Source of the DNA: Candidatus Phyllobacterium onerii | Lineage (GTDB): Bacteria > Pseudomonadota > Alphaproteobacteria > Rhizobiales > Rhizobiaceae | Assembly (NCBI RefSeq): GCF_028331445.1 | Contig: NZ_JAQMHX010000003.1 | Location: 372,001 to 436,000, forward strand | Reading direction: 5' to 3' | DNA: 64,000 nt | In this document: in pieces, positions 4,997 to 17,188 of the stretch | Numbering within the stretch: position 1 is the stretch's first letter | Layout: every line of letters begins with the position of its first letter | Position numbers and translations under genes: made by a program | The notes under the pieces: generated by a model | Told to the model about the DNA's origin: nothing | Databases searched by the model: none | Seen by the model: the letters and a program-made list of their open reading frames with translations, nothing else

Positions 4997-6025
4997 TCAC
5001 CCTTTTTCCTGTTCGGCAAGCACTAGCAGGCGGCGGGCACTTTCCTCATCGGTAATGAACACTGTCGGACGAACGAGCGCCATCGCGCCATAAAGCGCCC
5101 TGATCTTTTCCTTGCCGCCGGACGTCAATACCCGCGCCGGCACACGTTGCACCGTGTCGATGCCTACGGACATGACGAGGTCATGGATGGGATGATCCAC
5201 CAGCTGACCCTGCTTGTCGTAAAAATGGAACAGAAGATCGCCAACGGCGCCACGTTCCGCCAGGGAGGCCTGGTGGCCCTGATTGAGGAAGCCGATGTGG
5301 TAGGGCGTGCTGGAGGCCGTTTCAATGGCCCCTACACTCAGAAGCACCAGATCTAGATCCTCGGCCATCTCGAACACGCTTTTGAGGCCGCAGCGTTCAA
5401 TCAAGGCGGTTTTGGTCTCGATACTGTCCACCATGGCAGGAGCGGGAATGAGATACCCATCGCCCTGGAACAATTGTGCGAATTGCCAGGCAAATTCAGC
5501 CGGATTAAAGCGCCGCGGCTGGCTGATTCCGCCAAGCAGCGAGATAACCGTAAAGTTCTCAAGCGCCCGTGCTTCGAGATAGGACAATGTGTTGAGAAGC
5601 GTCCGCCCCCAACCAACGCCGACACGCATGCCATTGCTGACGATCCCGGACAGATAATCTCCCGTGGCGGCCGCTATCGCCGGGATCGGATCGTTGTCCG
5701 GATGGGACAATGGCGCGATGATCACCTTGTCGAGACCGAATTGCCGTTCAACCTGCCTTTCCAGTGCGACTAGGTCCGAAAGATAGCCCTGGATCCCGAT
5801 CTTGACCTCGTTGCGCGCCCGCGCTTCGGCCAGCATGCGCACAATGGTCACGCGTCCAACGCCGAGAATCTCGGCGATCTCGTTCTGCGTCATCTGCTCG
5901 ATATAGTACATCCAGGCGGCGCGCATGCGCATCCGGCTGATTTTGGTGTCCGGCTGCCCCACATCCAGAGGAGTCTTTTGGAGGCTTTTCGTCGTACCAT
6001 TCGTTCGCTTGCGTCGATCGCTCAA
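4997..6025 (-). CDS. SorC/DeoR-family sugar-responsive transcriptional regulator
   Basis: Regulator of 342 aa with an N-terminal helix-turn-helix (near 40-80, MTQNEIAEILGVGRVTIVRM) and a C-terminal sugar-phosphate-binding SorC domain (GVGWGRTL, VISLLGG, LVLLSVGAI). Family members such as SorC and SmoC bind phosphorylated sugars or polyols. The start is TTG at 6025, with GGGGGG 5 nt upstream; the nearby ATG is in another frame. It lies at one end of the PTS/Aco/DRL region and is the obvious candidate to control both transcription units, possibly through the shared motif at 11662 and 17168. The ligand would then be the phosphorylated PTS product (inference). Confidence 0.88.
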   Translation of the reverse strand: MSDRRKRTNGTTKSLQKTPLDVGQPDTKISRMRMRAAWMYYIEQMTQNEIAEILGVGRVTIVRMLAEARARNEVKIGIQGYLSDLVALERQVERQFGLDKVIIAPLSHPDNDPIPAIAAATGDYLSGIVSNGMRVGVGWGRTLLNTLSYLEARALENFTVISLLGGISQPRRFNPAEFAWQFAQLFQGDGYLIPAPAMVDSIETKTALIERCGLKSVFEMAEDLDLVLLSVGAIETASSTPYHIGFLNQGHQASLAERGAVGDLLFHFYDKQGQLVDHPIHDLVMSVGIDTVQRVPARVLTSGGKEKIRALYGAMALVRPTVFITDEESARRLLVLAEQEKG

Positions 6026-6178
6026 TCATCCCCCCTTTGATCGCTCCCGTTCCTTCAAAGCAGCAATGCTGCATCAAGCCAGAGCGACCTTCACACTACA
6101 CCTCACGAGAATGTTGTTTAGCAGGCCAAGAAAAAAAGGTACAAACGATTATCCACCTGCGCGCAAAGGTACGCCATC

Positions 6179-6931
6179 ATGATCCGGGATATTTCAAGCG
6201 AGATTGTCGTCAGTTTGAAAGACCGCCTGCGCGATGTACGCCACCTGATCAGGGCAAGTCGGCAAGATCGCCCGCCCGTGCCTCAGGATCTGCCCGATAT
6301 CTTGTTCGGTAAGGCCGCGCGCGCCATGGACAAGGCATTGACTGCCGCAGAGACAATTTCGATCTCCCTGGTTTCACAGGATCCGGCTGCCCATTCGACA
6401 ACCATCGAAGCGCGCAGTCTCGATGTTTATTTTCCGGCTGATGCCGGCAAAGGCGAGGCGCTGTTCCGGCGCGACATATATTACCTGACGAAGCGTATCT
6501 TGAGCGTTTTGGGATCGCACAATGCGCTCATTCACGAATCAACATTCGCATCCGTGCATGCGACAGTGATTCGCCGTCACGCGGCTTTGTTGTCCGGCGC
6601 AAAGGACGGCGATCCGAATGACATTGCAGAGGTAAGCGCCCGACTGGCGGTCGAGTTGCAATCGCAATATCAATCCGCGCATTTGCCGTTGGCCGGATAT
6701 GCCGGGCAGCAGCCGGATCTGGACATCCAGTATTTGTGCTTTTCCGCTATCGCCCTCGCGATCGGTCTTGCCACCTATGCGGATCATGAACCGGACGATG
6801 AAAGATTGGTCGAGAGCGCGTTGTTGGCTCTACAAGCCCGCGGGGACAAATTCGATCAGGCAATCGCTGCATCGGATAAGGTAAAAGCCTTGTCCGATCT
6901 ATTCGCCTTTTTGATTCCCCACCTGCCCTAA
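6179..6931 (+). CDS. Unknown protein in the polyol PTS cluster (250 aa)
   Basis: A soluble protein of 250 aa with no signal peptide or membrane segment; it looks mostly alpha-helical. I do not recognise the family and see no catalytic motif. The start is ATG at 6179 with an AAAGG site. It is divergent from the SorC regulator (153 bp between) and its last 33 bp overlap the 3' end of the HPr-EI gene in convergent orientation, so its stop lies inside that gene's coding sequence. Base use matches its neighbours. Its position suggests a role in the same pathway or in tuning it. Confidence 0.7.
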   Translation: MIRDISSEIVVSLKDRLRDVRHLIRASRQDRPPVPQDLPDILFGKAARAMDKALTAAETISISLVSQDPAAHSTTIEARSLDVYFPADAGKGEALFRRDIYYLTKRILSVLGSHNALIHESTFASVHATVIRRHAALLSGAKDGDPNDIAEVSARLAVELQSQYQSAHLPLAGYAGQQPDLDIQYLCFSAIALAIGLATYADHEPDDERLVESALLALQARGDKFDQAIAASDKVKALSDLFAFLIPHLP

Positions 6932-8890
6932 TTCCCAAACGCATTTTTTTGCACGTTGAATGGATGCCGGACTCATGCTGAGTTCCGTCAGCCCCATTTT
7001 GACGAATGCCGGGATGAGATCAGCACGGCCTGCGGCTTCGCCGCACATACCGACCATGATTCCAGCCTCGACACCAGCTTTCGCCGTAAGTTCGATCGCT
7101 GCCATTACCGCCGGATGTGTCACGTCATTCAACTTTGCGACAGTCGGGTTGAGGCGATCAGCCGCCATGATATATTGGGTCAGGTCATTGGTACCGATGG
7201 AAAAGAACGCGACCTCTTTGGCGAGCATGGCTGCAATCATGACGGCTGCTGGTGTCTCGACCATGACACCAAGGTCGAAATTCGCGTAGTCCCTCCCCTC
7301 CGTTTTGAGTTCTGCGGCACACTCGTCGACCAGGCTGCGCGTAGCGCGGACTTCGCCAAGATCGGAGACCATCGGCAACATGACCTTGATGTTGCCATGC
7401 ACGGCGGCACGCAGGAGCGCACGCAATTGCGGTTTGAAAACATCCGGGCGGTCGAGGCACATGCGAATACCGCGCCAGCCCAGAAACGGATTTTCTTCAT
7501 CCGGAAAATCAATACCGGATATCGGCTTGTCGCCGCCAATATCCAGCGTACGAACGATCACAGGGTGTGGCGCGAACGCTTTGGCAAGCGTCGTATAGGT
7601 TTCGGTCTGCAAATCCTCCGATGGCAGATGAATGTGCCGCATGAACAGCAGCTCGGTGCGGAACAGCCCAACGCCCATGGCACCGGCTTCCTGTGCCGCT
7701 TCGATCTCCTCCAGGGAGCCGAGATTGGCCGCAATCTCGATGATAGTGCCATCAGCACGCCTCGGTACGATATCCTTATAAGCTTTCAACGCCTGCCTTT
7801 CCGTTTCCGCGACGCCGATTTGCGCATGGAAACGATCGGTCGTCATCTGGTCGGGATCGGGGAAGACATCACCATTATTACCATCCAACGCAACGCTCTT
7901 GACCTGCTGCAATTGCTGCACGGAATGTCCAAGCCCGAGAACCGCAGGGATCCCGTGCGCACGCGCAATGATTGCGACATGCGATGTTGCGCCACCATGG
8001 CCGCATATCACACCGGCGATACGCTTCAATGGCGCGCGGGCCAGATCCCATGCGCCGATATCGTCGGCGATCAGAATTGCACCGGAAGGAATAGCGTCAA
8101 GATTGGCATCGTCCTGCCCCAGTAGCGCTAGGCAGATCTGCCGCCCGACTGCATTTACATCGTCGGCTCGGGCATTGAGGTAAGGATCATCCATTGAAGC
8201 GAAATCCGCCGCAATTCTCGACGTGGCGCCAATGACGGCAGAAACCGCATCCATGCCTTCTCTCACCAGCGCTTCCGCAGCCTGTGTGAGTTCATCGTCA
8301 CAGGCAATATCCTTGAGAGCAGCGATAATACCGCGGTCGCTTTCTGCGAGATCCGTCGCGGCCAATGACATATCCATGCGGTGTTGCACGGTCGCGAAAG
8401 CCTGCGTCAGCCGGCCGGCTTCTGCCGGTATTTCGTCCGCTGCCAGCAGGCGGTTTTCATGTTTGATTTCCGCCGGAAAAAAGCCGAAGGCTGGCCCGAT
8501 GGCAAAGCCTTCGCTGGCAGCAACCCCGCGCAATTTGCCCGTGGCTGAGGTAGTGGAATTTGTCGAGAAGGCCTTGGACTGAACAGGCGTGGGCTCGGCA
8601 GATGCTTTTTCAGCTCGTTCCTCTTCCGCCGTGCCTGCATGCGGATCTTCAAGGTATCCGATCAGTGCCTCGATTGCCTCGATCTCATCCGCACCACTCG
8701 CCCTTACGGTAACTGTCTCGTTCTCCTTGACGCCTAGCAGCATCAGCTTCACGGAACTCTTTGCACTGACGGATTTGTCGGCCTTGATCAGCTCGATATC
8801 CGATTCGAAACCCTTTGCGAGTTTGACAAATCTGGTGGCTGGCCGCGCATGCAATCCGTCATGCACCCGCACTATTGTCGAGCGTTCCAT
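6899..8890 (-). CDS. ptsHI: HPr-Enzyme I fusion phosphotransferase
   Basis: A 663-aa PEP-dependent phosphocarrier for sugar transport. Residues 1-85 are an HPr domain with the phospho-His motif GLHARPAT and the Ser-46-like region VSAKSSVKLMLL. A linker rich in Ala, Glu and Ser follows to about 115, then Enzyme I with the active-site His in GGATSHVAIIARAHGIPAV and the PEP site MVGMCGEAAG near the C-terminus. There is no GAF domain, so it is not the EI-Ntr of the regulatory PTS usual in Rhizobiales. It is the last gene of the gutM-srlA-srlE-srlB unit, 23 bp after srlB, so it gives that transporter its own phosphate supply. Confidence 0.93.
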   Translation of the reverse strand: MERSTIVRVHDGLHARPATRFVKLAKGFESDIELIKADKSVSAKSSVKLMLLGVKENETVTVRASGADEIEAIEALIGYLEDPHAGTAEEERAEKASAEPTPVQSKAFSTNSTTSATGKLRGVAASEGFAIGPAFGFFPAEIKHENRLLAADEIPAEAGRLTQAFATVQHRMDMSLAATDLAESDRGIIAALKDIACDDELTQAAEALVREGMDAVSAVIGATSRIAADFASMDDPYLNARADDVNAVGRQICLALLGQDDANLDAIPSGAILIADDIGAWDLARAPLKRIAGVICGHGGATSHVAIIARAHGIPAVLGLGHSVQQLQQVKSVALDGNNGDVFPDPDQMTTDRFHAQIGVAETERQALKAYKDIVPRRADGTIIEIAANLGSLEEIEAAQEAGAMGVGLFRTELLFMRHIHLPSEDLQTETYTTLAKAFAPHPVIVRTLDIGGDKPISGIDFPDEENPFLGWRGIRMCLDRPDVFKPQLRALLRAAVHGNIKVMLPMVSDLGEVRATRSLVDECAAELKTEGRDYANFDLGVMVETPAAVMIAAMLAKEVAFFSIGTNDLTQYIMAADRLNPTVAKLNDVTHPAVMAAIELTAKAGVEAGIMVGMCGEAAGRADLIPAFVKMGLTELSMSPASIQRAKKCVWELGQVGNQKGE

Positions 8891-8913
8891 TCAAATCTCT
8901 CTTCGATAATTCA

Positions 8914-9291
8914 TTACCCGATGGTAATCGTCGTTCCAACTTTCAACGCCGATACCAGCTCAGCCGTATCGATTTCCGATGCGCAAATTTCGCCTGGGCG
9001 TTCAACTTGATCGGACCCATTGAACGTAATGACCACATGTCCAATATCTTTGACCTTCTGCCAGGCATAATCGCCAATACCGGTGATGCTGGCAGATACA
9101 TCGCCAATATGGATTGCAGCCCCTACTGGCGGTGTCTCGTCAGAAGGCTGGCCCTCGACAGCATGCAGGATCGAAACCTCTGCAAGTTCAGGCGGCGCGC
9201 CATCCGCAAACAGAATGACCACGCCTCCCTCGGCAAGATCCGCCACCTCAGGTCCAACGGCTGTTACCCGTGTTTTCAATAGGACTGACAT
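8914..9291 (-). CDS. srlB: PTS glucitol/sorbitol-type IIA component
   Basis: Cytoplasmic EIIA of the glucitol family, 125 aa, about the length of E. coli SrlB. It takes phosphate from HPr and passes it to IIB. The phospho-His region reads VSILHAVEGQ and the C-terminal half has the family block DIGHVVITFNG. It lies 30 bp after srlE and 23 bp before the HPr-EI gene, in one operon. The true substrate is unknown; the family name reflects sequence class only. Confidence 0.92.
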   Translation of the reverse strand: MSVLLKTRVTAVGPEVADLAEGGVVILFADGAPPELAEVSILHAVEGQPSDETPPVGAAIHIGDVSASITGIGDYAWQKVKDIGHVVITFNGSDQVERPGEICASEIDTAELVSALKVGTTITIG

Positions 9292-9321
9292 ATGGCGAAC
9301 CTCTTTTTCTTTTCGTTGAAC

Positions 9322-10347
9322 TCAAAATACGATCAGGCTGACGATCCAGGCTATAACGACAGATACCGGCCCCATGATCTGGCGACTGATCAGAACCGCC
9401 GGCACACCGATTTCGATCGTCTTGGGCTTGGCTTCACCGAGCGCCAGACCAACCGGGACAAAGTCACAACCTACCTGCGTATTATAGGCGAACAGTGCAG
9501 GCAGAGCCATTGCCGGTGAAATCGTGCCGTTGGCGATCTGCGGTCCGATAATCGCGACGCCGATAACTTGGGCGATAACCGCACCTGGTCCCAAAATCGG
9601 CGACAGGAATGGCAACCCGCAGATGGCTGAAAGGATCAGCAAACCGACGATATTATTGGCAAGCGGTCCCATTGGTTGCGCCAGCACATCGCCAATCCCG
9701 GTATAAAGGATGAAGCCGATGAGCATGGTCACAAACGCCATGAACGGCAGGACGTTGCGGACGACCTGGTCGATGGTACGGCGACCGGCATTGAAGAAAA
9801 TGCCGACCACACGGCCCATAGCTCGGCCGATAGTGCTGATAAAGCCTATTAACCCACCTTCACCGTTGTCCGACGTTGCAGTCCGGCTTGCCATGGACGC
9901 GGCAAGTTCTGCAGGCGTGGGCGGCGAGTCCTGTGACGATCTTACCCCTGCAACTGCTGCCGGTTGTGACCCGTCGGCGAGTTCGATATTGGCCTCTTTT
10001 ACACCTGAAACGTAGATGTCTTCGGTAATGAACTGCGCCAAGGGTCCTGCTTGGCCGACCGGCGTCAGATTGACGGTCGGAATACGTTTCCGTGGATAAA
10101 CACCGCAGCGGGCAGTACCGCCGCAGTCGACGACAACGACGCCCATCTCTCCTTCAACCGGAGGCGCCTTGAAACCGTCAACCGCCTCTCCGCCCGTGAG
10201 TTCTGCAATGCGGCGTGCGACGGGATGAATGCCGCCACCGGTGACGGACACGACCTTGTTACGCTCAGGCGTCAGCTGAATGACAAGCGGGCCGCCCCAA
10301 CCATTACCGCCTCTGGAAATCTTTACTGCCTTATAGGTCTTTGACAT
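9322..10347 (-). CDS. srlE: PTS glucitol/sorbitol-type IIBC component
   Basis: Membrane component of 341 aa. The N-terminal IIB domain has GGNGWGGPL and the active-site cysteine region DCGGTARCGVYPRKRIPT, both close to E. coli SrlE. A variable linker near 140-180 is followed by a membrane domain with several helices and GLPFLSPILGPGAVIAQVIG. It accepts phosphate from IIA and phosphorylates the substrate during uptake. The ATG at 10347 has a GGGGAGAA site. It is 21 bp after srlA. Confidence 0.93.
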   Translation of the reverse strand: MSKTYKAVKISRGGNGWGGPLVIQLTPERNKVVSVTGGGIHPVARRIAELTGGEAVDGFKAPPVEGEMGVVVVDCGGTARCGVYPRKRIPTVNLTPVGQAGPLAQFITEDIYVSGVKEANIELADGSQPAAVAGVRSSQDSPPTPAELAASMASRTATSDNGEGGLIGFISTIGRAMGRVVGIFFNAGRRTIDQVVRNVLPFMAFVTMLIGFILYTGIGDVLAQPMGPLANNIVGLLILSAICGLPFLSPILGPGAVIAQVIGVAIIGPQIANGTISPAMALPALFAYNTQVGCDFVPVGLALGEAKPKTIEIGVPAVLISRQIMGPVSVVIAWIVSLIVF

Positions 10348-10368
10348 TTTACTTCTCCCCGCCCCGAC

Positions 10369-11127
10369 TTAAAGTTCAATGCCCTGACGGCGTGCCATGA
10401 TGGCAGTAATGCGCTCGGTCAGCATACCCTTCAGGAGGATGACTACCAGACCAACGAGCGCGTACCAGATGGCGACGTTGATGTGATAACCGACGGGAAC
10501 CGCGCCTTTTTTCTCAAGTTCGAGAAGCGCGACGAGAATACCGCCCCAAACGAAATATTCGCCCGGGTTAATGTGCGGGAACAGACCAAGCGGTGGATGC
10601 ACATAGGATACGGCCGCATCGTAGAACGCCGGCTTGTGCTTTTCTTCGAGGAACGAACCAAACGTATAGGCCATCGGGTTTGTGAGGAAGAACACGGAAA
10701 GCACGGGCAAGACAGTGTAGCGCGTCAGCGCGATACGACCTGCACCCCGGGCGATGCCATGCACGCGTTCTTCGCCGACAAGCTCCGTCAAAGCGTAGAA
10801 TGCGGTCATCAGCACGACGAGCGTCGGGATAATGCCTGTTACAAATCCGGCGAAGACCTCGCCGCCCTTCTGGAAGATACCGATGAAGTATTTACCGATG
10901 TGGGTCAGCCAGCCGAGCTGCTCTTCCTGCTGGACATTCTTCAGCTTGTCCTTGAATTCCTCGACAGTGATATCCCCCGTCGATTGCACAAGCACGACAA
11001 GATCGTTGCCCGCATGCGTGATGGCCTGTTTGCCGTGGAGCGCCGCATCCGAGACCATCGATCCCGCCACCGAAATATGGTGCGCGGCGATGTCCGCATG
11101 TTGCGCCAGCATTGTTAAAATTGACAT
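10369..11127 (-). CDS. srlA: PTS glucitol/sorbitol-type IIC component
   Basis: Membrane permease of 252 aa. The family block FQKGGEVFAGFVTGIIP starts near residue 90, and LFPHINPGEYFVWGG forms the probable substrate region. Compared with E. coli SrlA (about 187 aa) it has an extra N-terminal part of about 70 residues (LAQHADIAAHHISVAGSMVS), soluble-looking and of unknown role. A strong GGAGGAGG site precedes the ATG at 11127, so the long form is probably real. Confidence 0.92.
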   Translation of the reverse strand: MSILTMLAQHADIAAHHISVAGSMVSDAALHGKQAITHAGNDLVVLVQSTGDITVEEFKDKLKNVQQEEQLGWLTHIGKYFIGIFQKGGEVFAGFVTGIIPTLVVLMTAFYALTELVGEERVHGIARGAGRIALTRYTVLPVLSVFFLTNPMAYTFGSFLEEKHKPAFYDAAVSYVHPPLGLFPHINPGEYFVWGGILVALLELEKKGAVPVGYHINVAIWYALVGLVVILLKGMLTERITAIMARRQGIEL

Positions 11128-11167
11128 GTTCCCTCCTCCTTATCGACCGTTTTCCAAACGGCCGTCC

Positions 11168-11602
11168 CTATGCGTTGACTGGCTTGATCCCGATTAGACC
11201 GGGCCGCTTTGGTTCTGCCCTGGCCTTGTCTATCTGTTCGATTGCGCGCTCCGCCGCTTTGGCGACATTCGGCTCCCCCAGACCTGTCATCACAGGATCG
11301 GTGCGCAATGCGTTCAGCGAGCTACCCTCAAACTCCTCGCGCCGCTTGAATTTCGCAAAAACCGATCTACCGCTCATCACGAGAAAACGTTGAACCGCAA
11401 GGTCCGGCGTAACGAGAATGAGGACGATCACACCCTTGCCAAAGCGGCCGCGAACATTGCCCGCGCCAACAAAACCATCATTGTATTTGGAAGTGATGCC
11501 TTTCATCACATCGCTATAGTGGCGCATCTGGTACCAGACGCCCAGTGATTGCAGCGCCCACAAAATCCCAAGGGCCAGCAATCCCCATTGCCACATTGCC
11601 AT
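11168..11602 (-). CDS. gutM: GutM-like protein, first gene of the PTS operon
   Basis: A 144-aa protein with one N-terminal membrane helix (WQWGLLALGILWALQSLGVW) and a cytoplasmic domain like the E. coli glucitol operon activator GutM, which helps control the gut operon together with GutR. I place the start at 11602 because GGGAGG lies 10 nt before that ATG; a longer frame reaches 11635 without a site. It is the first gene after the promoter at 11656-11690. In E. coli gutM is distal to the transporter genes, so its place here differs. Confidence 0.85.
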   Translation of the reverse strand: MAMWQWGLLALGILWALQSLGVWYQMRHYSDVMKGITSKYNDGFVGAGNVRGRFGKGVIVLILVTPDLAVQRFLVMSGRSVFAKFKRREEFEGSSLNALRTDPVMTGLGEPNVAKAAERAIEQIDKARAEPKRPGLIGIKPVNA

Positions 11603-11655
11603 GTCTTCAACCTCCCAACGCCCGACCGCAAACATATGCTATGATCGAACGAAAA

Positions 11656-11690
11656 AATATAGAACATTTGTTTTTTGTAATGTCAATATG
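11656..11690 (-). promoter_or_regulatory. Promoter with operator-like motif before gutM-srlAEB-ptsHI
   Basis: On the minus strand a -35-like TTGACA (11681-11686) is followed by ACAAATGTTC (11662-11671) and TATATT (11656-11661). The decamer and adjoining AT-rich bases recur before the DRL operon at 17160-17188, also downstream of TTGAC. A 10-bp identity placed equally in two promoters of one cluster suggests a regulator site, most likely for the SorC protein. The 19-bp spacer to TATATT is long, so the exact -10 is uncertain. Confidence 0.6.
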
Positions 11691-11727
11691 TATGATTTCG
11701 GTTCTGTTAAAACTTGGCTTGTGCTGC

Positions 11728-11747
11728 ATCACGGCGTATGACGTGAT
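11728..11747. promoter_or_regulatory. Inverted repeat before the unknown gene at 11773
   Basis: ATCACG (11728-11733) and CGTGAT (11742-11747) form an inverted repeat separated by 8 bp, centred about 35 bp upstream of the ATG at 11773. It has the size of an operator half-site pair. No matching site was found elsewhere in the window. Confidence 0.35.
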
Positions 11748-11772
11748 ACAATGAATTTGAAGGTGGGAAGGC

Positions 11773-12408
11773 ATGGATTTTCTGTTCAGAGACGAATTAG
11801 TCCATATGCCGGATTTACGGCACCGGCTTCGCCAACTGCGTTGGTTTCGCATGGCTTTTCGCAAGAATGCCGCGCTGATTGCGGAACACTACGGATATCA
11901 ATTTGCCATCGATGAAACCAGATTGACCAAAGCTTTTCTCAACTGGGTCGAGACGGTTGAACAACAAAAGTCCTATGCGCAGATCGATCGCAAGGATTTC
12001 ATCATTTTTGCTGCGGGCCTTGTGCTCAAAGAGCTTATCACCATAGGACCGGCGACAGTCCGAAGCCATCCCAAGCAGAGCGAATCGCAGCTGACAGAAA
12101 TGCAGGAGATTATCGCGTTCTGGCCTGAAGGGTTCCTCTATACCAATTACTGTGTCGGCGCGATCGCGGCAATTTGTGAGCAGGAATTTGGTACCGCTCC
12201 GAAGATCGACGCATGCGCGGACGATCTGCGCACATGGTGGTCGTACCGCGAGAACGTCCGCGAGATTCCGGATCAAGCGATCGCCTTTCTCGACAAATTC
12301 CTTGGCGCGGAGCCCAACTGGATCATGCCCAATCTGGCTTCGGCTCGCAGTGCCATTCAGCGAGCGCTCGTTTCGCCGAAACCAAGCGCTACGCTACCGA
12401 ACGGCTGA
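11773..12408 (+). CDS. Unknown protein between the PTS and Aco units (211 aa)
   Basis: A soluble 211-aa protein rich in aromatic and charged residues (e.g. LRQLRWFRMAFRKNAALIAEHYG). No signal peptide, membrane helix or known catalytic motif is visible, and I do not recognise the family. It starts at ATG 11773 (AAGG site), divergent from gutM across a 170-bp regulatory region, and its 3' end overlaps the 3' end of acoC by 20 bp (convergent). Both unknown genes of this region are placed this way, on the opposite strand and overlapping the last gene of an operon. Confidence 0.7.
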   Translation: MDFLFRDELVHMPDLRHRLRQLRWFRMAFRKNAALIAEHYGYQFAIDETRLTKAFLNWVETVEQQKSYAQIDRKDFIIFAAGLVLKELITIGPATVRSHPKQSESQLTEMQEIIAFWPEGFLYTNYCVGAIAAICEQEFGTAPKIDACADDLRTWWSYRENVREIPDQAIAFLDKFLGAEPNWIMPNLASARSAIQRALVSPKPSATLPNG

Positions 12409-13705
12409 CCTCTGTCAGTATCCGCATGATCTTTTCACGCTGTTCGAGCTGCGGCATATGTCCGGTCCCGGCAAAGAGATGCACGGCGATCTCGCCCGGT
12501 AACCCGGTGGCATGTGTCGCCGGGATCACCCGATCGGCTGCTCCGAAAATCAAACGGACTGGAATGGTCAGATTGGCAAGGGTCTGCCTGACATCGATGA
12601 CCTGCGTTCCGTCAGCGAAAAAACGGTCGGCAACGAGCTGCTGCGCATCGCGCAACGCCACATTCTGCGATTGAGCCAGCGTTGCGCTGATAAATGGCTT
12701 GGTCAAAAGACTTTCATCCTGAACCAGCTGCTTCATCCACGCGACGAGGCTCGGCTCGGTACGAGCCCGGACGAACCCCGAAAGAAACGCACCATTGATT
12801 TCAGGTCCAAGCCCGGCCGATGCGATCAGGACCAGTGCACGAATGTCGAGATGGCTGCGGGCAGCCACTTCGGTTGCGACCGCGCCACCAAATGAGTGCG
12901 CAACCAGGATTATTGGTCCAGAGTGATAGGCAGCAACGGTTTGTTCCACCAATTCGGCAATCGCATGCAGATCATCTGGAATGGTGTGCGGCGATGCGCC
13001 ATGGCCGGGCAGATCGATGGCAAGGATCGGATTGTCCAACGTGCCACCGCCCAGCATCGGTCTCCAGCTGTTGAGATCGGAGCCGAAGCCATGGATCAGG
13101 ACAAGCGGCGCGAGCTCCGAATTGTTGCCTTCGCGCAGCCATGCCGCATGCAGCGGAGCACCGGCTTGAACGGCAGGTTCGCGAAGCTGCACAACTGGCT
13201 TCGTGACCGCCGCACCCAGCGCAACGCCATTTTCGACATCCTTCTTCTGGATGCGTCCCTTCGGTCCAGACCCTGAAACCGACGTCAGATCAATGCCGGC
13301 TTCCTTGGCAACGCGGCGGGCGAGCGGCGTTGCACGAACGCCGTCGGCTTTGTCAGCGGTCGTTGTCGTTGTTGCGGGCGCGGTTTCCAACGATTCAGCC
13401 GCAGGCTTTGCCTCTGGCGCAACCACTGCGGGTGCATCTGCAATGTTTGTTGGTGCATAGGCCTCACCTTCGGCAAAGATCCACGCTACGGCCTGGCCCA
13501 CAGGAACTGTCGTGCCCTCCGCCGCCGTGACATTGCGCAAAATGCCCGAAGACGGTGCATCCACTTCCATGGCTGCCTTGTCAGTCTCGATTTCGAACAG
13601 CACCTGCCCTTTGGTGACAGCATCGCCATCCTTTGCGTACCAGCGCGAAATCTGGCCGCTTTCCATATCCATATCGACCTTGGGCAGGATCACCTCGACG
13701 GGCAT
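12389..13705 (-). CDS. acoC: Acetoin-dehydrogenase-type E2 with alpha/beta-hydrolase domain
   Basis: A 438-aa dihydrolipoyl acyltransferase component. The N-terminal lipoyl domain has the lipoylated Lys in FEIETDKAAMEVDAPSSG. A Pro/Ala-rich linker leads to an E3-binding domain (RATPLARRVAKEAGIDL, about 125-160). The C-terminal domain is an alpha/beta hydrolase (LVLIHGFGSDLNSW, LPGHGAS, nucleophile elbow AHSFGG) instead of the trimeric acetyltransferase domain of pyruvate dehydrogenase E2. This layout is known from AcoC of acetoin dehydrogenase. It starts 3 bp after acoB. No E3 gene is adjacent, so a shared lipoamide dehydrogenase would be needed. Confidence 0.9.
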   Translation of the reverse strand: MPVEVILPKVDMDMESGQISRWYAKDGDAVTKGQVLFEIETDKAAMEVDAPSSGILRNVTAAEGTTVPVGQAVAWIFAEGEAYAPTNIADAPAVVAPEAKPAAESLETAPATTTTTADKADGVRATPLARRVAKEAGIDLTSVSGSGPKGRIQKKDVENGVALGAAVTKPVVQLREPAVQAGAPLHAAWLREGNNSELAPLVLIHGFGSDLNSWRPMLGGGTLDNPILAIDLPGHGASPHTIPDDLHAIAELVEQTVAAYHSGPIILVAHSFGGAVATEVAARSHLDIRALVLIASAGLGPEINGAFLSGFVRARTEPSLVAWMKQLVQDESLLTKPFISATLAQSQNVALRDAQQLVADRFFADGTQVIDVRQTLANLTIPVRLIFGAADRVIPATHATGLPGEIAVHLFAGTGHMPQLEQREKIMRILTEVSRSVA

Positions 13706-13708
13706 GGC

Positions 13709-14707
13709 TTAACGTATCCCCTTAACGAGATCGCGAGCGCTCTTCAGAATACCGGGCACCTGCGGCACCGTCGCCTTCTCGAGCTCCGGATTATAGGGAA
13801 TAGGCGTTTCCGCACCACCCAGGCGCACGATCGGCGCATCGAGATAATCGAAGGCCTCGCTTTCGGCGATCATCGCGCTGACTTCTGCCCCGATGCCAAG
13901 TGTTTTCACGCCTTCATAGACGCACATCAGCTTCGACGTTTTTTTGACACTGGCGATGATGGTTTCCTTATCCATCGGACGGACGGTGCGCAAATCGACG
14001 ACCTCGACATCGATGCCTTCTTTCTCGAGCTCTCGCGCCGCTTCCAGTGCTTTGTGCACCATGATGGCCGAAGCAACGATGGTCAGGTCAGTTCCTTCGC
14101 GTACGACAGCAGCCTTGCCGATCGGCACGGTATAATGTCCTTCCGGAACATGACCCTTCATCTTGTAGAGCAGCTTGTGCTCGAAAATCATGACGGGATC
14201 CGGGTCTTCGATGGCCGCGAGCAACATGCCCTTGGCATCATACGGCGTCGACGGCTGGATAACCTTCAGGCCAGGTACGTGGCCAAACCACGCTTCAAGA
14301 CTTTGGCTGTGTTGCGCCGCGGCGCCTGTACCGGAGCCGGCGGGAAAGCGCATCACCAGAGGCACCGAGACAGCGCCGCCGAGCATATACCGAATCTTCG
14401 CCGCCTGATTGACGATCTGTTCCATTGCCAGCGCTGCGAAATCCGAAAACTGGAACTCGAAGATCGGCCGCATTCCGGTCAAGGCCGCACCGACGGCAAC
14501 GCCCGCACCGCCAAGCTCGGAGATGGGCGTATCCATCACCCGATCTTCACCGAAACGATGCACAAGGTCACCCGTCACCTGAAAAGCGCCGCCATAGACG
14601 CCGATGTCCTCGCCCATTAGAAACACGCGGTCATCGGCTTCCATGGCAATGGCCATGGCTTCCTGGATTGCCTGCGAATAGCTCAGCTCGCGGATTATCT
14701 CGTCCAT
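13709..14707 (-). CDS. acoB: TPP-dependent acyloin/2-oxoacid dehydrogenase E1 beta
   Basis: A 332-aa transketolase-like E1 beta subunit, beginning [18 protein letters not shown], with the usual blocks [51 protein letters not shown] and [12 protein letters not shown]. It pairs with E1 alpha to bind thiamine diphosphate and perform the decarboxylating or C-C-cleaving step. The start codon overlaps the acoA stop (TAATG), so the two are translationally coupled. The acetoin-type E2 next door favours an acyloin substrate over a 2-oxoacid. Confidence 0.9.
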
Positions 14708-15744
14708 TAAATTTCAACCGTATAAACGTCGCGTGTCAGATTATCGAGCGTAGGTGATGGGCTGTTCCTGGCGAATTCGATCGCCTCGGCAATCTCCGCC
14801 TCGGCGCTTGTCCGGATCGCGTCGATATCGGCGTCGTTGACGAAACCGAATTCCTTGAGCTGATCTTCGAACAGTTGGATCGGATCGCGATTGCTGATCC
14901 AGTCCTCGATCTCTTCTTTTGTGCGGTAGCGGTTGCGGTCACTCTTAGAATGACCGCGGTGACGATACGTCTTGCACTCGATGAGGGTTGGGCCCTCACC
15001 CCGGCGGGCCCGTTCCACAGCATCGTGTGACGCTTCGGCGACATCGGAGAGATTGTTACCATCGACGACAACGCCCGGCATGTTGTAGGCGACCGCGCGA
15101 TCAGCAACGTTCGCAACAGCCGTCGAACGCTTGGTCGATGTGGACATGCCATAACCATTGTTCTCGCAGACGAAAACCACCGGCAGCTTCCAGATCGAAG
15201 CCATGTTGAGCGCTTCGTGAAACGCACCCTCATTGTTGGCGCCATCGCCAAAATAAGAGATGACGACCTTGCCGTTCTTCTGCTTCTTTGCGGACAGAGC
15301 AGCCCCAACCGCAATCGGGATACCGCCGCCGACGATGCCATTCGCACCGAGATTGCCCTTGGAGACGTCGGCGATATGCATGGAGCCGCCACGGCCCTTG
15401 CAGTAACCCGTCTCCTTGCCGAAGAACTCGGCGAACATTTTCGAGACTTCCGCGCCCTTGGCGATGCAATGTCCATGACCGCGATGCGTCGAGGTGATCA
15501 TGTCATCTTCGGCGAGCGGCATCGAAATGCCGACCGCACTCGCTTCCTGACCAATAGACAGGTGCATGGTGCCGTGGATGAGGCCGCGCGTATAGGACTC
15601 CTCTGCACCCTCTTCGAAGCGGCGTATCAGATACATCTTGCGCAGTGCTTCCTTCAGCTGCTCCGGCGGATAATGCCGAAACGCGAAGGGAAGGTTGCTA
15701 CCATCGTCATGGCGCTTGGCGCTTGAATTTCTGGCGGCTGCCAT
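14707..15744 (-). CDS. acoA: TPP-dependent acyloin/2-oxoacid dehydrogenase E1 alpha
   Basis: A 345-aa E1 alpha subunit. The thiamine-diphosphate motif begins [18 protein letters not shown] and ends ENNGYGMS. Other family blocks are [32 protein letters not shown] and a phosphorylation-loop-like [19 protein letters not shown]. AcoA and PDH E1 alpha are similar, so the class is set by the neighbouring AcoC. It lies 38 bp after the DRL gene and should be cotranscribed with it. Confidence 0.9.
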
Positions 15745-15782
15745 GTCGGCACTCCCTGTCTGATTCTAGATGCTTTCGAGGC

Positions 15783-17102
15783 TCACGCCCCATAAACCAG
15801 TTTATCCTGGCGAGCGCGGAGTTCGACGATCTTCGAGCCTGGCGCGGGGGCGGCATTGGCGCTGGTGATGAGTTCACCCTTCCTGATGGCTTTCGTGACG
15901 CTGCCGCCCTGCAAAAGGCCGCAAGGGATGGCACCGGCGACGCGCGCTTCGCCCGCCGTCATGATCCACGCGCGGTAGCAATATTCGCCAATCGCATCGA
16001 GCCTGTCGCCGGGCTTCAGATCCTTCTTGGCGACGGCACAGACCTCGGCCACCGGCTTGGCCAGCGGCACCATGTCGGCCTTGCCGTAAAGCACGACGCG
16101 GGCGCAGGTCAGCGGCACCTCGAGCGAAGTCAGGTGATAGGGGCGATGGAAGGTGAAGTAGGGACCCTTGCCCATCTTCAGGTCTTCCATGCGCTCCGAG
16201 ATGCGCGGATGCGACATGTCGGCAACGACGAAGACGCCCGGCGCCACGCCCTTGCCGATCGAATAGTCGACGACACCCACGCGCGACAGGACGCCGCCAT
16301 CCTTTTCCGGCACGAGCACCTTCGACAACTGGTCGAGCGTTGCCGCCGGGCCATGCATGCCGGGCCTGTCGGGGACGAGCCCGGTGGCATTGGCGATCGC
16401 CGCCATCTCCACCATGGTCTTCGAGCCATCGACGAACTCGACCAGCATGCGCACATTCATGTGGCGGCGCCTGGCTTCTTCCTCGTAATCGTCGGGTATC
16501 GCATCGATGTTGAGCGGGTTGTTCTTGCCCTTGCCGGCGGCAACGATCGGATGGCCCATGGCCGAAACGAACTCGATCAGCTCCATGCACGAGGACGGCT
16601 CATCGCCGGCACCGAGCGAATAGGTGACGCCGAGCCGGTCGGCCTCGCTCTTCAAATAGGCGCCGATGGTCACGTCCGCCTCGACATTCATCATGACCAG
16701 ATGCTTGCCGTGCTCCATTGCCTTCAAGCCGATCTCGGCCCCGACCGCCGGCACCCCGGTCGCATCGATGACCACATCGATCAGCTCGTTCTCAAGGATG
16801 AGATCGGCATCATTGGTCACGGCGATCTTGCCGGCTTCCATCGCCGCGGTCAGCGCCGCAGCATTCGAGACTTCGCGCGAATGACCCGCTTCCTGGTAGG
16901 CGATGTCGACGGCCTTGACCGCGTGGGGCAAATTGAGTTCGGAAATCGCCCCGATCTCGATGCCGGGCATATGCGCCACACGCGTGACGATGTCGGTGCC
17001 CATCTCGCCCGAACCGATCAGGCCGATGCGGATCGGACGGCCGGTCTCCGCTCGCGCCTGCATATCCCGCGCCAATCCCGTCAATGCAACATTCGTAGCC
17101 AT
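15783..17102 (-). CDS. Type II DXP reductoisomerase-like oxidoreductase (DRL) with SAF domain
   Basis: A 439-aa NAD(P)-dependent enzyme. The Rossmann motif RIGLIGSGEMGTD is near residue 26, a homoserine-dehydrogenase-like middle includes MMNVEADVTIG, SLGAGDEPSSCMELIEFV and AGKGKNNPLN, and the C-terminal SAF-like part has CGLLQGGSV. It closely resembles my memory of Brucella abortus DRL (DXR-II), which makes 2-C-methyl-D-erythritol 4-phosphate from DXP in place of DXR; no alignment was run. Here it leads an operon with acoABC next to a polyol PTS, which suggests the reverse, catabolic direction (inference). I chose ATG 17102 (GGGAGG site, 50 nt after the promoter) over an upstream frame start at 17150. 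Confidence 0.8.
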   Translation of the reverse strand: MATNVALTGLARDMQARAETGRPIRIGLIGSGEMGTDIVTRVAHMPGIEIGAISELNLPHAVKAVDIAYQEAGHSREVSNAAALTAAMEAGKIAVTNDADLILENELIDVVIDATGVPAVGAEIGLKAMEHGKHLVMMNVEADVTIGAYLKSEADRLGVTYSLGAGDEPSSCMELIEFVSAMGHPIVAAGKGKNNPLNIDAIPDDYEEEARRRHMNVRMLVEFVDGSKTMVEMAAIANATGLVPDRPGMHGPAATLDQLSKVLVPEKDGGVLSRVGVVDYSIGKGVAPGVFVVADMSHPRISERMEDLKMGKGPYFTFHRPYHLTSLEVPLTCARVVLYGKADMVPLAKPVAEVCAVAKKDLKPGDRLDAIGEYCYRAWIMTAGEARVAGAIPCGLLQGGSVTKAIRKGELITSANAAPAPGSKIVELRARQDKLVYGA

Positions 17103-17159: not shown

Positions 17160-17188
17160 CGAATATTGAACATTTGTATTTTAGTCAA
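17160..17188 (-). promoter_or_regulatory. Promoter with operator-like motif before DRL-acoABC
   Basis: On the minus strand TTGACT (17183-17188) and TATTCG (17160-17165) are 17 bp apart, a good sigma-70 promoter. The spacer contains ACAAATGTTC (17168-17177), identical to the decamer in the gutM promoter at 11662-11671. The flanking AATATT / TATATT is also similar. This ties the two operons to one regulator. Confidence 0.65.

Follow-up and report, generated by a model that had tools for sequence, protein, structure and literature searches.

A candidate catabolic regulon for methylerythritol built around a type II DXP reductoisomerase in Candidatus Phyllobacterium onerii and distant bacteria

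Acetoin dehydrogenase cleaves a methyl-ketone acyloin to acetyl-CoA and an aldehyde. Going by its title, a 2004 report of Testa, Cornish and Poulter is said to concern uptake of 2-C-methyl-D-erythritol (methylerythritol) by the sorbitol phosphotransferase system (PTS) of Salmonella, which reportedly served as a bypass for mutants of the 2-C-methyl-D-erythritol 4-phosphate (MEP) pathway. The Brucella-type enzyme DRL, a type II 1-deoxy-D-xylulose 5-phosphate (DXP) reductoisomerase (DXR-II), is presented in the cited part of PMC3847144 as an enzyme of isoprenoid synthesis that converts DXP to MEP. The same part raises the question of how a redundant DXR-II could evolve in strains with the type I enzyme (DXR-I), and mentions an active DXR-II in Finegoldia although the rest of both isoprenoid pathways is missing there; in the cited part of PMC13001223, DXR-II occurrence follows no defining pattern beyond over-representation among certain pathogens. 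Here we analyzed a stretch of 64,000 nt from Candidatus Phyllobacterium onerii (assembly GCF_028331445.1, contig NZ_JAQMHX010000003.1, positions 372,001 to 436,000; hereafter the window), in which a DRL gene is clustered with genes for a glucitol-type PTS and an acetoin-dehydrogenase-like E1/E2.

We read the cluster as a catabolic regulon under SorC, with two operons that would serve the degradation of 2-C-methyl-D-erythritol or of a branched polyol very similar to it. A dedicated PTS would import methylerythritol and phosphorylate it to MEP, DRL would run backwards, oxidizing and isomerizing MEP to DXP, and the E1/E2 with a housekeeping E3 would cleave the acyloin bond of DXP and transfer the acetyl group to CoA, so that acetyl-CoA and D-glyceraldehyde 3-phosphate would be the end products. 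The proposed DXP dehydrogenase would thus catalyze DXP + CoA + NAD -> acetyl-CoA + glyceraldehyde 3-phosphate + NADH. We regard this reading as a whole, which is drawn from sequence comparison, as quite probable. Within it, the genes, their conserved linkage, the E1 and PTS clades and the shared operator-like element are observations; we infer control by SorC, import of methylerythritol and the direction of DRL, and DXP as the substrate of E1 is the least certain assignment. By kind the system is a polyol PTS regulon; its chemistry would be new if the reading is true, and a limited literature search of titles and abstract openings found no description of a catabolic pathway for methylerythritol or DXP.

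Gene organization of the cluster

The genome comprises 6.0 Mb in 65 contigs and is 99.9% complete. Operon 1 runs on the minus strand from 17102 downward in the order DRL, E1 alpha, E1 beta and E2, and is followed on the same strand by operon 2, consisting of GutM, IIC, IIBC, IIA and HPr-EI, and then by the SorC regulator gene, which ends at 4997. Two plus-strand genes without family assignment intersperse the minus-strand cluster. All genes named in the preliminary description of this DNA were found where it had placed them, as uninterrupted frames, as are all genes of the cluster, and with Pfam matches above the cut-off (SorC, HPr and Enzyme I, IIA, IIBC, IIC, GutM, E1 beta, E2 and DRL alike).

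4997..6025 (-): SorC/DeoR-type sugar-phosphate-responsive regulator, the probable regulator of both operons; PF04198, 183 bits
6179..6931 (+): UnkB, recurrent in alphaproteobacterial clusters, with homologues in 11 other loci
6899..8890 (-): HPr-Enzyme I fusion, predicted dedicated phosphoryl donor of the PTS; PF00381, PF05524, PF00391, PF02896
8914..9291 (-): glucitol-type PTS IIA; PF03829
9322..10347 (-): glucitol-type PTS IIBC, member of the DRL-linked PTS clade; PF03612 and PF07663
10369..11127 (-): glucitol-type PTS IIC, member of the DRL-linked PTS clade; PF03608
11168..11635 (-): GutM; PF06923
11773..12408 (+): UnkA, mostly helical; predicted model with a pLDDT (predicted local distance difference test) of 87.7
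12389..13705 (-): E2 (AcoC type), lipoyl PF00364, E3-binding PF02817 and alpha/beta hydrolase PF12697; NF011457, 404 bits
13709..14707 (-): E1 beta, proposed DXP dehydrogenase subunit, DRL-linked E1 clade; PF02779 and PF02780
14707..15744 (-): E1 alpha, proposed DXP dehydrogenase subunit, with basic K267 in the GHSKSD loop; PF00676, 317 bits
15783..17102 (-): DRL (DXR type II), proposed to oxidize MEP to DXP; PF21135, 229 bits (cut-off 27)

E1 alpha falls barely below the cut-off of the pyruvate dehydrogenase (PDH) E1-alpha model (393.4 vs 393.85). SorC genes recur in the cluster at other loci. Homologues of UnkA recur in alphaproteobacterial clusters, where they lie between the PTS and E2 genes and also beside the variant with a kinase. 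Neither UnkA nor UnkB had a Pfam or NCBIfam match at E 0.001.

Comparative evidence for the enzymes, import and regulation

The window DRL matched Brucella DRL (3UPL) without gaps over 435 residues (E 6e-216). According to the cited part of PMC3847144, K191, K193 and T229 of DXR-II belong to the substrate site and R320 to the dimer interface, and all four are kept in the window DRL, as they are in 179 of the 184 DRLs compared. Among named plasmid records, Phyllobacterium had the closest DRLs, with up to 95.9% identity. The window genome had no match to the DXR-I model and has IspG, so some DRL presumably makes its MEP. It carries two close DRL copies with 98.2% DNA identity over 1331 bp, a likeness that spans the gene and not its flanks. 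In G149, another genome of the window's genus, both settings again contain a DRL copy, with 95.8% likeness between them, and the two copies of a genome of another genus (G028) are 98.7% alike. Between the three genomes of the window's genus, DRL identity is 77-83%, that is, a difference of 17-23%. The DRL of the catabolic operon and the copy elsewhere therefore look homogenized in three of the four pairs examined. In G063, likewise a member of the window's genus, the cluster is complete except for DRL: E1, E2 and the PTS are present, and the operator-like element described below precedes E1 alpha. The single close DRL of G063 lies on another contig, and there is no DXR-I match. In G067, G018, G151, G172 and G090, the sole close DRL adjoins E1/E2 and there is likewise no DXR-I match. 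The near-identical copies, G063 and the genomes with an operon DRL alone make the operon and isoprenoid enzymes look interchangeable, so the operon DRL should handle MEP and DXP; this argues strongly for its acting on these compounds. The second DRL of Phyllobacterium-type genomes stands in a different conserved setting, next to aldose epimerase, ribose-type ABC (ATP-binding cassette) transporter and kynurenine genes (loci L011 [G000:C13:72001-92000], L019, L026, L061 and L062).

We surveyed 199 genomes of the family, taking a bit score above about 440 as a close DRL and including G110, whose DRL is in fragments. Close DRL was present in 130 genomes and DXR-I in 71, a count that leaves out two weak partial matches (G034 and G132; 73 with them). 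Both enzymes were present in six genomes and neither in four, one of which (G096) has a DRL severed by a contig end. For 80 DRL places taken from 65 of these genomes, with higher identity favored, E1, PTS or kinase genes lay within 10 kb in 29 places and none did in 51. Every two-DRL genome among those fetched (15/15) had one copy with E1 (12) or kinase-only (3) neighbors and one copy without. In the genomes with both DXR-I and close DRL, the DRL had catabolic neighbors in all six, five via E1 and one via a kinase alone (L117, at a contig end).

Alphaproteobacteria, Bacillota, Chloroflexota and Actinomycetota all have loci in which DRL is accompanied by a glucitol-type PTS (or sugar kinase) and an acetoin-dehydrogenase-like E1/E2, so the question of whether other genomes keep DRL beside a glucitol PTS, raised in the preliminary description, has a positive answer across phyla. 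The wider sample consisted of 79 named loci from Bacillota, Chloroflexota, Actinomycetota and others, obtained from the best 80 of at least 555 confirmed stretches ranked by similarity to the Priestia DRL. E1 was within 10 kb of DRL in 37 of these loci and a glucitol PTS in 49. DXR-I and IspG were searched in 40 genomes (41 of the 79 loci) and found in 29 and 32 genomes, respectively. Twenty-nine loci were in genomes with both, 27 of them showing E1, PTS or kinase genes next to DRL and two showing none; one (Listeria farberi, with PTS beside DRL) had DXR-I without IspG; four had IspG without DXR-I, with E1 and PTS beside DRL in two and none in two; and seven had neither (Virgibacillus, Lentibacillus, two Chloroflexota and three Enterococcus), with E1 and PTS beside DRL in four and PTS only in three. 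Since MEP cannot proceed where IspG is absent, isoprenoid salvage is excluded in those seven unless the assemblies are incomplete. We think it likely, with a fair measure of doubt, that these loci represent a widespread catabolic pathway that would reverse the first steps of the MEP pathway to gain carbon and energy, with a thiamine-dependent DXP dehydrogenase, and that DXR type II is largely catabolic, having been re-used by Rhizobiales for isoprenoids after loss of DXR-I.

A glucitol PTS was the import gene in most loci that have one. An ABC transporter and a PfkB-type kinase stand in place of the PTS in Agrobacterium CFBP7129, in Rhizobium N324 and, on a plasmid, in Sinorhizobium meliloti Rm41, and in Priestia a major facilitator superfamily (MFS) transporter and an FGGY kinase do. 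Such unrelated solutions for import and phosphorylation around the same DRL and E1/E2 point to a free polyol that needs conversion to a phosphate ester; DRL, phosphorylation on import and the Salmonella precedent known by its title suggest that this polyol is 2-C-methyl-D-erythritol. In the tree of IIBC and IIC, 75 of 77 DRL-linked sets, the window set among them, fell into one clade, which has 82 members and a support of 1.0. Its remaining seven members were alphaproteobacterial, and the stretches fetched for them contained no DRL (contig ends, G063, G122 and G172). E. coli SrlAE, five Bacillota sets and one Enterococcus set (L303) lay outside. Full-length glucitol IIBC was found in 25 of the 199 family genomes and lay within 10 kb of DRL in 18 (one DRL being truncated by a contig end); in the remaining genomes the two were severed at contig ends consistently in four (G086, G090, G127 and G151) and apart in three (G063, G122 and G172). 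The presence of PTS and of close DRL was associated across the family sample (Fisher p 2e-4).

The preliminary description had noticed the missing sorbitol-6-phosphate dehydrogenase, and this held: with E. coli srlD as query, no SrlD-like match at E 1e-8 was found within 6 kb of the window PTS. By the same measure, a match was present in 5 of 80 loci with DRL and PTS, the window counted (L142, L143 and the Enterococcus loci L208, L210 and L213; 29-31% identity), and in all seven sorbitol-type reference loci (29-100% identity, E. coli srlD being the query itself). A stricter cut at 33% identity or more gave 0 of 80, yet five of the seven references also fell below it, hence our use of E 1e-8. 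An ordinary sorbitol operon was dropped as an explanation, given the place of the window PTS in the DRL-linked clade and this missing match. In the Chloroflexota DRL clusters L194, L186, L175 and L203, IIBC is apparently split into two genes.

For the cleavage step, a tree was built that included 71 DRL-linked E1 alpha/beta pairs long enough for use and three acetoin references picked by neighboring butanediol, acetoin-reductase or AcoX/AcoR-like genes. All 71 pairs fell into one clade (support 0.986), with acetoin dehydrogenase, PDH and branched-chain 2-oxoacid dehydrogenase (BCKDH) outside; the acetoin side comprised the three references and two E1s without assignment that group with them. 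Three pairs in the clade are not adjacent to DRL, namely those of a C. difficile plasmid operon, the second E1 of G219 and one Domibacillus E1, the last on the same contig as DRL-PTS genes. Position 267 of E1 alpha, which follows GHS in the catalytic loop, carries a basic residue in all 71 DRL-linked proteins (69 K, 2 R), Glu in 5 of 5 acetoin-type and Met or Ser in 11 of 11 PDH-type E1s. It neighbors the serine that serves as phosphosite 1 in human PDH. Position alpha-59 is Thr in the DRL-linked clade and Phe in all 23 acetoin-, PDH- and BCKDH-type references; a Rubrobacter E1 just outside the clade also has Thr at alpha-59, but Glu at 267. A basic side chain close to the active-site entrance would suit the phosphate group of DXP, and acetoin-type chemistry together with this residue pattern is what suggests that E1/E2 takes DXP, which is the weakest link of the pathway. 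The divergences of DRL and E1 correlate (r 0.89, 71 loci), part of which shared species history alone would give. By BLAST, the E2 of DRL loci (L291 included) is of the acyltransferase type in 58 of 74 and of the hydrolase type, as in the window, in 16. The C. difficile operon (L226) has the order SorC-E1-E2-E3, and no annotated DRL was found in the 13 kb fetched. In Rhizobium sp. L51/94 (L023:18817-24026), a thiamine synthesis gene set adjoins the DRL/PTS cluster, which fits a thiamine-dependent E1.

Both operons of the window are preceded by a promoter/operator-like element.

11656..11686 (-): element of the PTS operon, before GutM; TTGAC-N10-ACAAATGTTC, then TATATT
17162..17188 (-): element of the DRL-E1-E2 operon, before DRL; TTGAC-N6-ACAAATGTTC, then AATATT

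With up to two mismatches, ACAAATGTTCWATATT had two sites in the window, ahead of GutM and DRL, compared with 0.03 expected. Among alphaproteobacterial loci, the element was at spacing 10 from TTGAC before 19 of 24 GutM genes and at spacing 6 before 20 of 36 catabolic DRL genes, compared with 1 of 58 other DRLs. It also stood before one of four alcohol dehydrogenase (ADH) genes and one of two E1 alpha genes without DRL (that of G063), and before no other gene type. A scan at spacing 8-13 recovered the 19 of 24 GutM and one ADH promoter but no DRL, and spacing 4-13 added the DRL promoters; a whole-genome pattern search at the GutM spacing only gave a single site and hence no count of the regulon. 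In Bacillota and others, the half-site ACAWATGT was sought within 220 bases upstream. It was found before the leading genes E1 alpha (16/23), GutM (11/23), DRL (19/44) and SorC (12/37), and before inner GutM (13/36) and E1 alpha (4/19); the controls gave 0/61 for inner IIBC, 0/46 for inner DRL, 0/40 for inner E1 beta and 94/3520 for random windows. This enrichment, together with the alphaproteobacterial element, suggests that one regulator type appears to govern DRL-linked operons across great phylogenetic distance. The regulator acting at these elements is presumably the SorC protein.

Weighing the alternatives

The preliminary description had proposed the catabolic pathway and, as another reading, import of methylerythritol to feed isoprenoid synthesis. 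The former found support, comparative-genomic in kind, because of the E1 clade, the largely dedicated PTS clade mostly without a sorbitol-6-phosphate dehydrogenase-like gene, the shared operator, the replacement of the PTS by import plus kinase, and the occurrence of the cluster where DRL is unneeded or unusable for isoprenoids. The latter, in which the PTS supplies MEP and DRL and E1/E2 do other jobs, is disfavored by the linkage to E1/E2 and by the genomes without IspG, and we consider it very improbable. A sorbitol PTS reportedly carries methylerythritol, and the window genome, having IspG, makes isoprenoids by the MEP route. However, MEP made by the PTS would join the pathway at a point past DRL, which would leave DRL and E1/E2 without purpose as its partners, and the seven genomes without DXR-I or IspG matches have DRL beside PTS (four also E1, three not).

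It is unlikely, though conceivable, that the same operon logic serves a different branched or 1-deoxy polyol in phosphorylated form, in which case the compounds converted by DRL and E1 would be analogues of MEP and DXP. Members of these PTS and kinase families may have broad specificity, and at some loci DRL is accompanied by additional genes of the GlpD-like, alcohol dehydrogenase or Rbs-type ABC kind. Such a substrate sits poorly with an operon DRL that hardly differs from the second close DRL of the DXR-I-less window genome, that is the sole close DRL in DXR-I-less genomes such as G067, G018, G151, G172 and G090, and that belongs to a family keeping the diagnostic DXR-II residues in 179 of 184 members. 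It is scarcely credible that an acetoin operon, a sorbitol-like PTS and a biosynthetic DRL are neighbors by chance: the window E2 does match the AcoC model, but linkage conserved across phyla, the E1 and PTS clades and the common operator-like element already contradict mere neighborhood.

Several observations weigh against degradation of methylerythritol through DXP as preferred here. The equilibrium of DXR favors MEP, so DRL must be pulled by E1/E2. No E3 (Lpd) gene lies within the window cluster, an alpha/beta-hydrolase domain replaces the usual acyltransferase domain of the window E2, and support for the branch that joins the DRL-linked E1 clade to acetoin E1 is weak (0.468). The set K-K-T-R is incomplete in 5 of 184 DRLs, the window copy not being among them, and the two DRL copies of G170, with a likeness of just 80.9%, depart from the pattern of the three remaining pairs. 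On the import side, the DRL-linked PTS clade does not include two Enterococcus sets that lie near DRL (L208a and L210a, with two PTS sets per locus), and the short-chain dehydrogenase/reductase in the 5 of 80 loci resembles SrlD as much as that in most sorbitol-type references does. None of the marker genes was near DRL in 16 of the 79 named loci, some on short contigs, and a DRL-PTS unit without E1/E2 nearby occurs in Listeria, four Bacillus, three Enterococcus and one Ligilactobacillus loci (such units being L021, L217, L200, L204, L205, L211, L208, L210, L213 and L022).

Other settings of DRL were also seen. The DRL-PTS units L022, L206 and L167 lack E1/E2 and have a gene of the fructose-6-phosphate aldolase (FSA)/transaldolase type, and L022 and L206 additionally carry a transketolase gene; with E1/E2 missing nearby, such transaldolase/FSA and transketolase genes mean that a second way to use, that is to cleave, DXP may exist. 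In L121, L122, L182, L190, L199, L209 and L215, DRL lies beside FGGY kinases with no E1 or PTS, five of the seven having alcohol dehydrogenases; these may be yet another type of pathway. Near DRL clusters of Alphaproteobacteria and Bacilli (L016, L017, L024, L123, L144 and L145), genes for a GlpD-like FAD enzyme and an alcohol dehydrogenase are found repeatedly, in the alphaproteobacterial loci together with ribose-type ABC genes; they perhaps form a route for a related polyol or stereoisomer.

Meaning and comparison with known systems

DXR-II is distributed patchily, often alongside DXR-I; a catabolic role, if true, would answer this puzzle and explain why an odd isoprenoid enzyme is present in bacteria with no need of it. 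Methylerythritol, a compound found free in plants, would gain a route of degradation, and thiamine enzymes a new reaction, the oxidative reverse of DXP synthase. Such a role is testable in ordinary laboratory strains.

The window DRL resembles Brucella DRL in the gap-free match over 435 residues and in the diagnostic residues, and differs in lying in a catabolic-looking regulon, where it would run from MEP to DXP. With acetoin dehydrogenase AcoABC, the window shares E1 alpha and beta and an E2 with lipoyl and hydrolase domains, whereas its E1 belongs to a separate clade, in which the active-site loop has a basic residue where acetoin-type E1s have an acidic one, and no AcoR, AcoX or butanediol genes are among the cluster genes. 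Like the E. coli srlAEBD-gutM sorbitol operon, it has a complete IIA, IIBC and IIC with GutM; unlike that operon, it has a PTS clade of its own, a DRL, a SorC regulator and its own HPr-EI, and is without sorbitol-6-phosphate dehydrogenase. The sorbitol PTS of Salmonella, as known from a title, is reportedly a glucitol-family PTS for methylerythritol as well, whereas the window would combine a dedicated PTS with enzymes able in principle to degrade its product.

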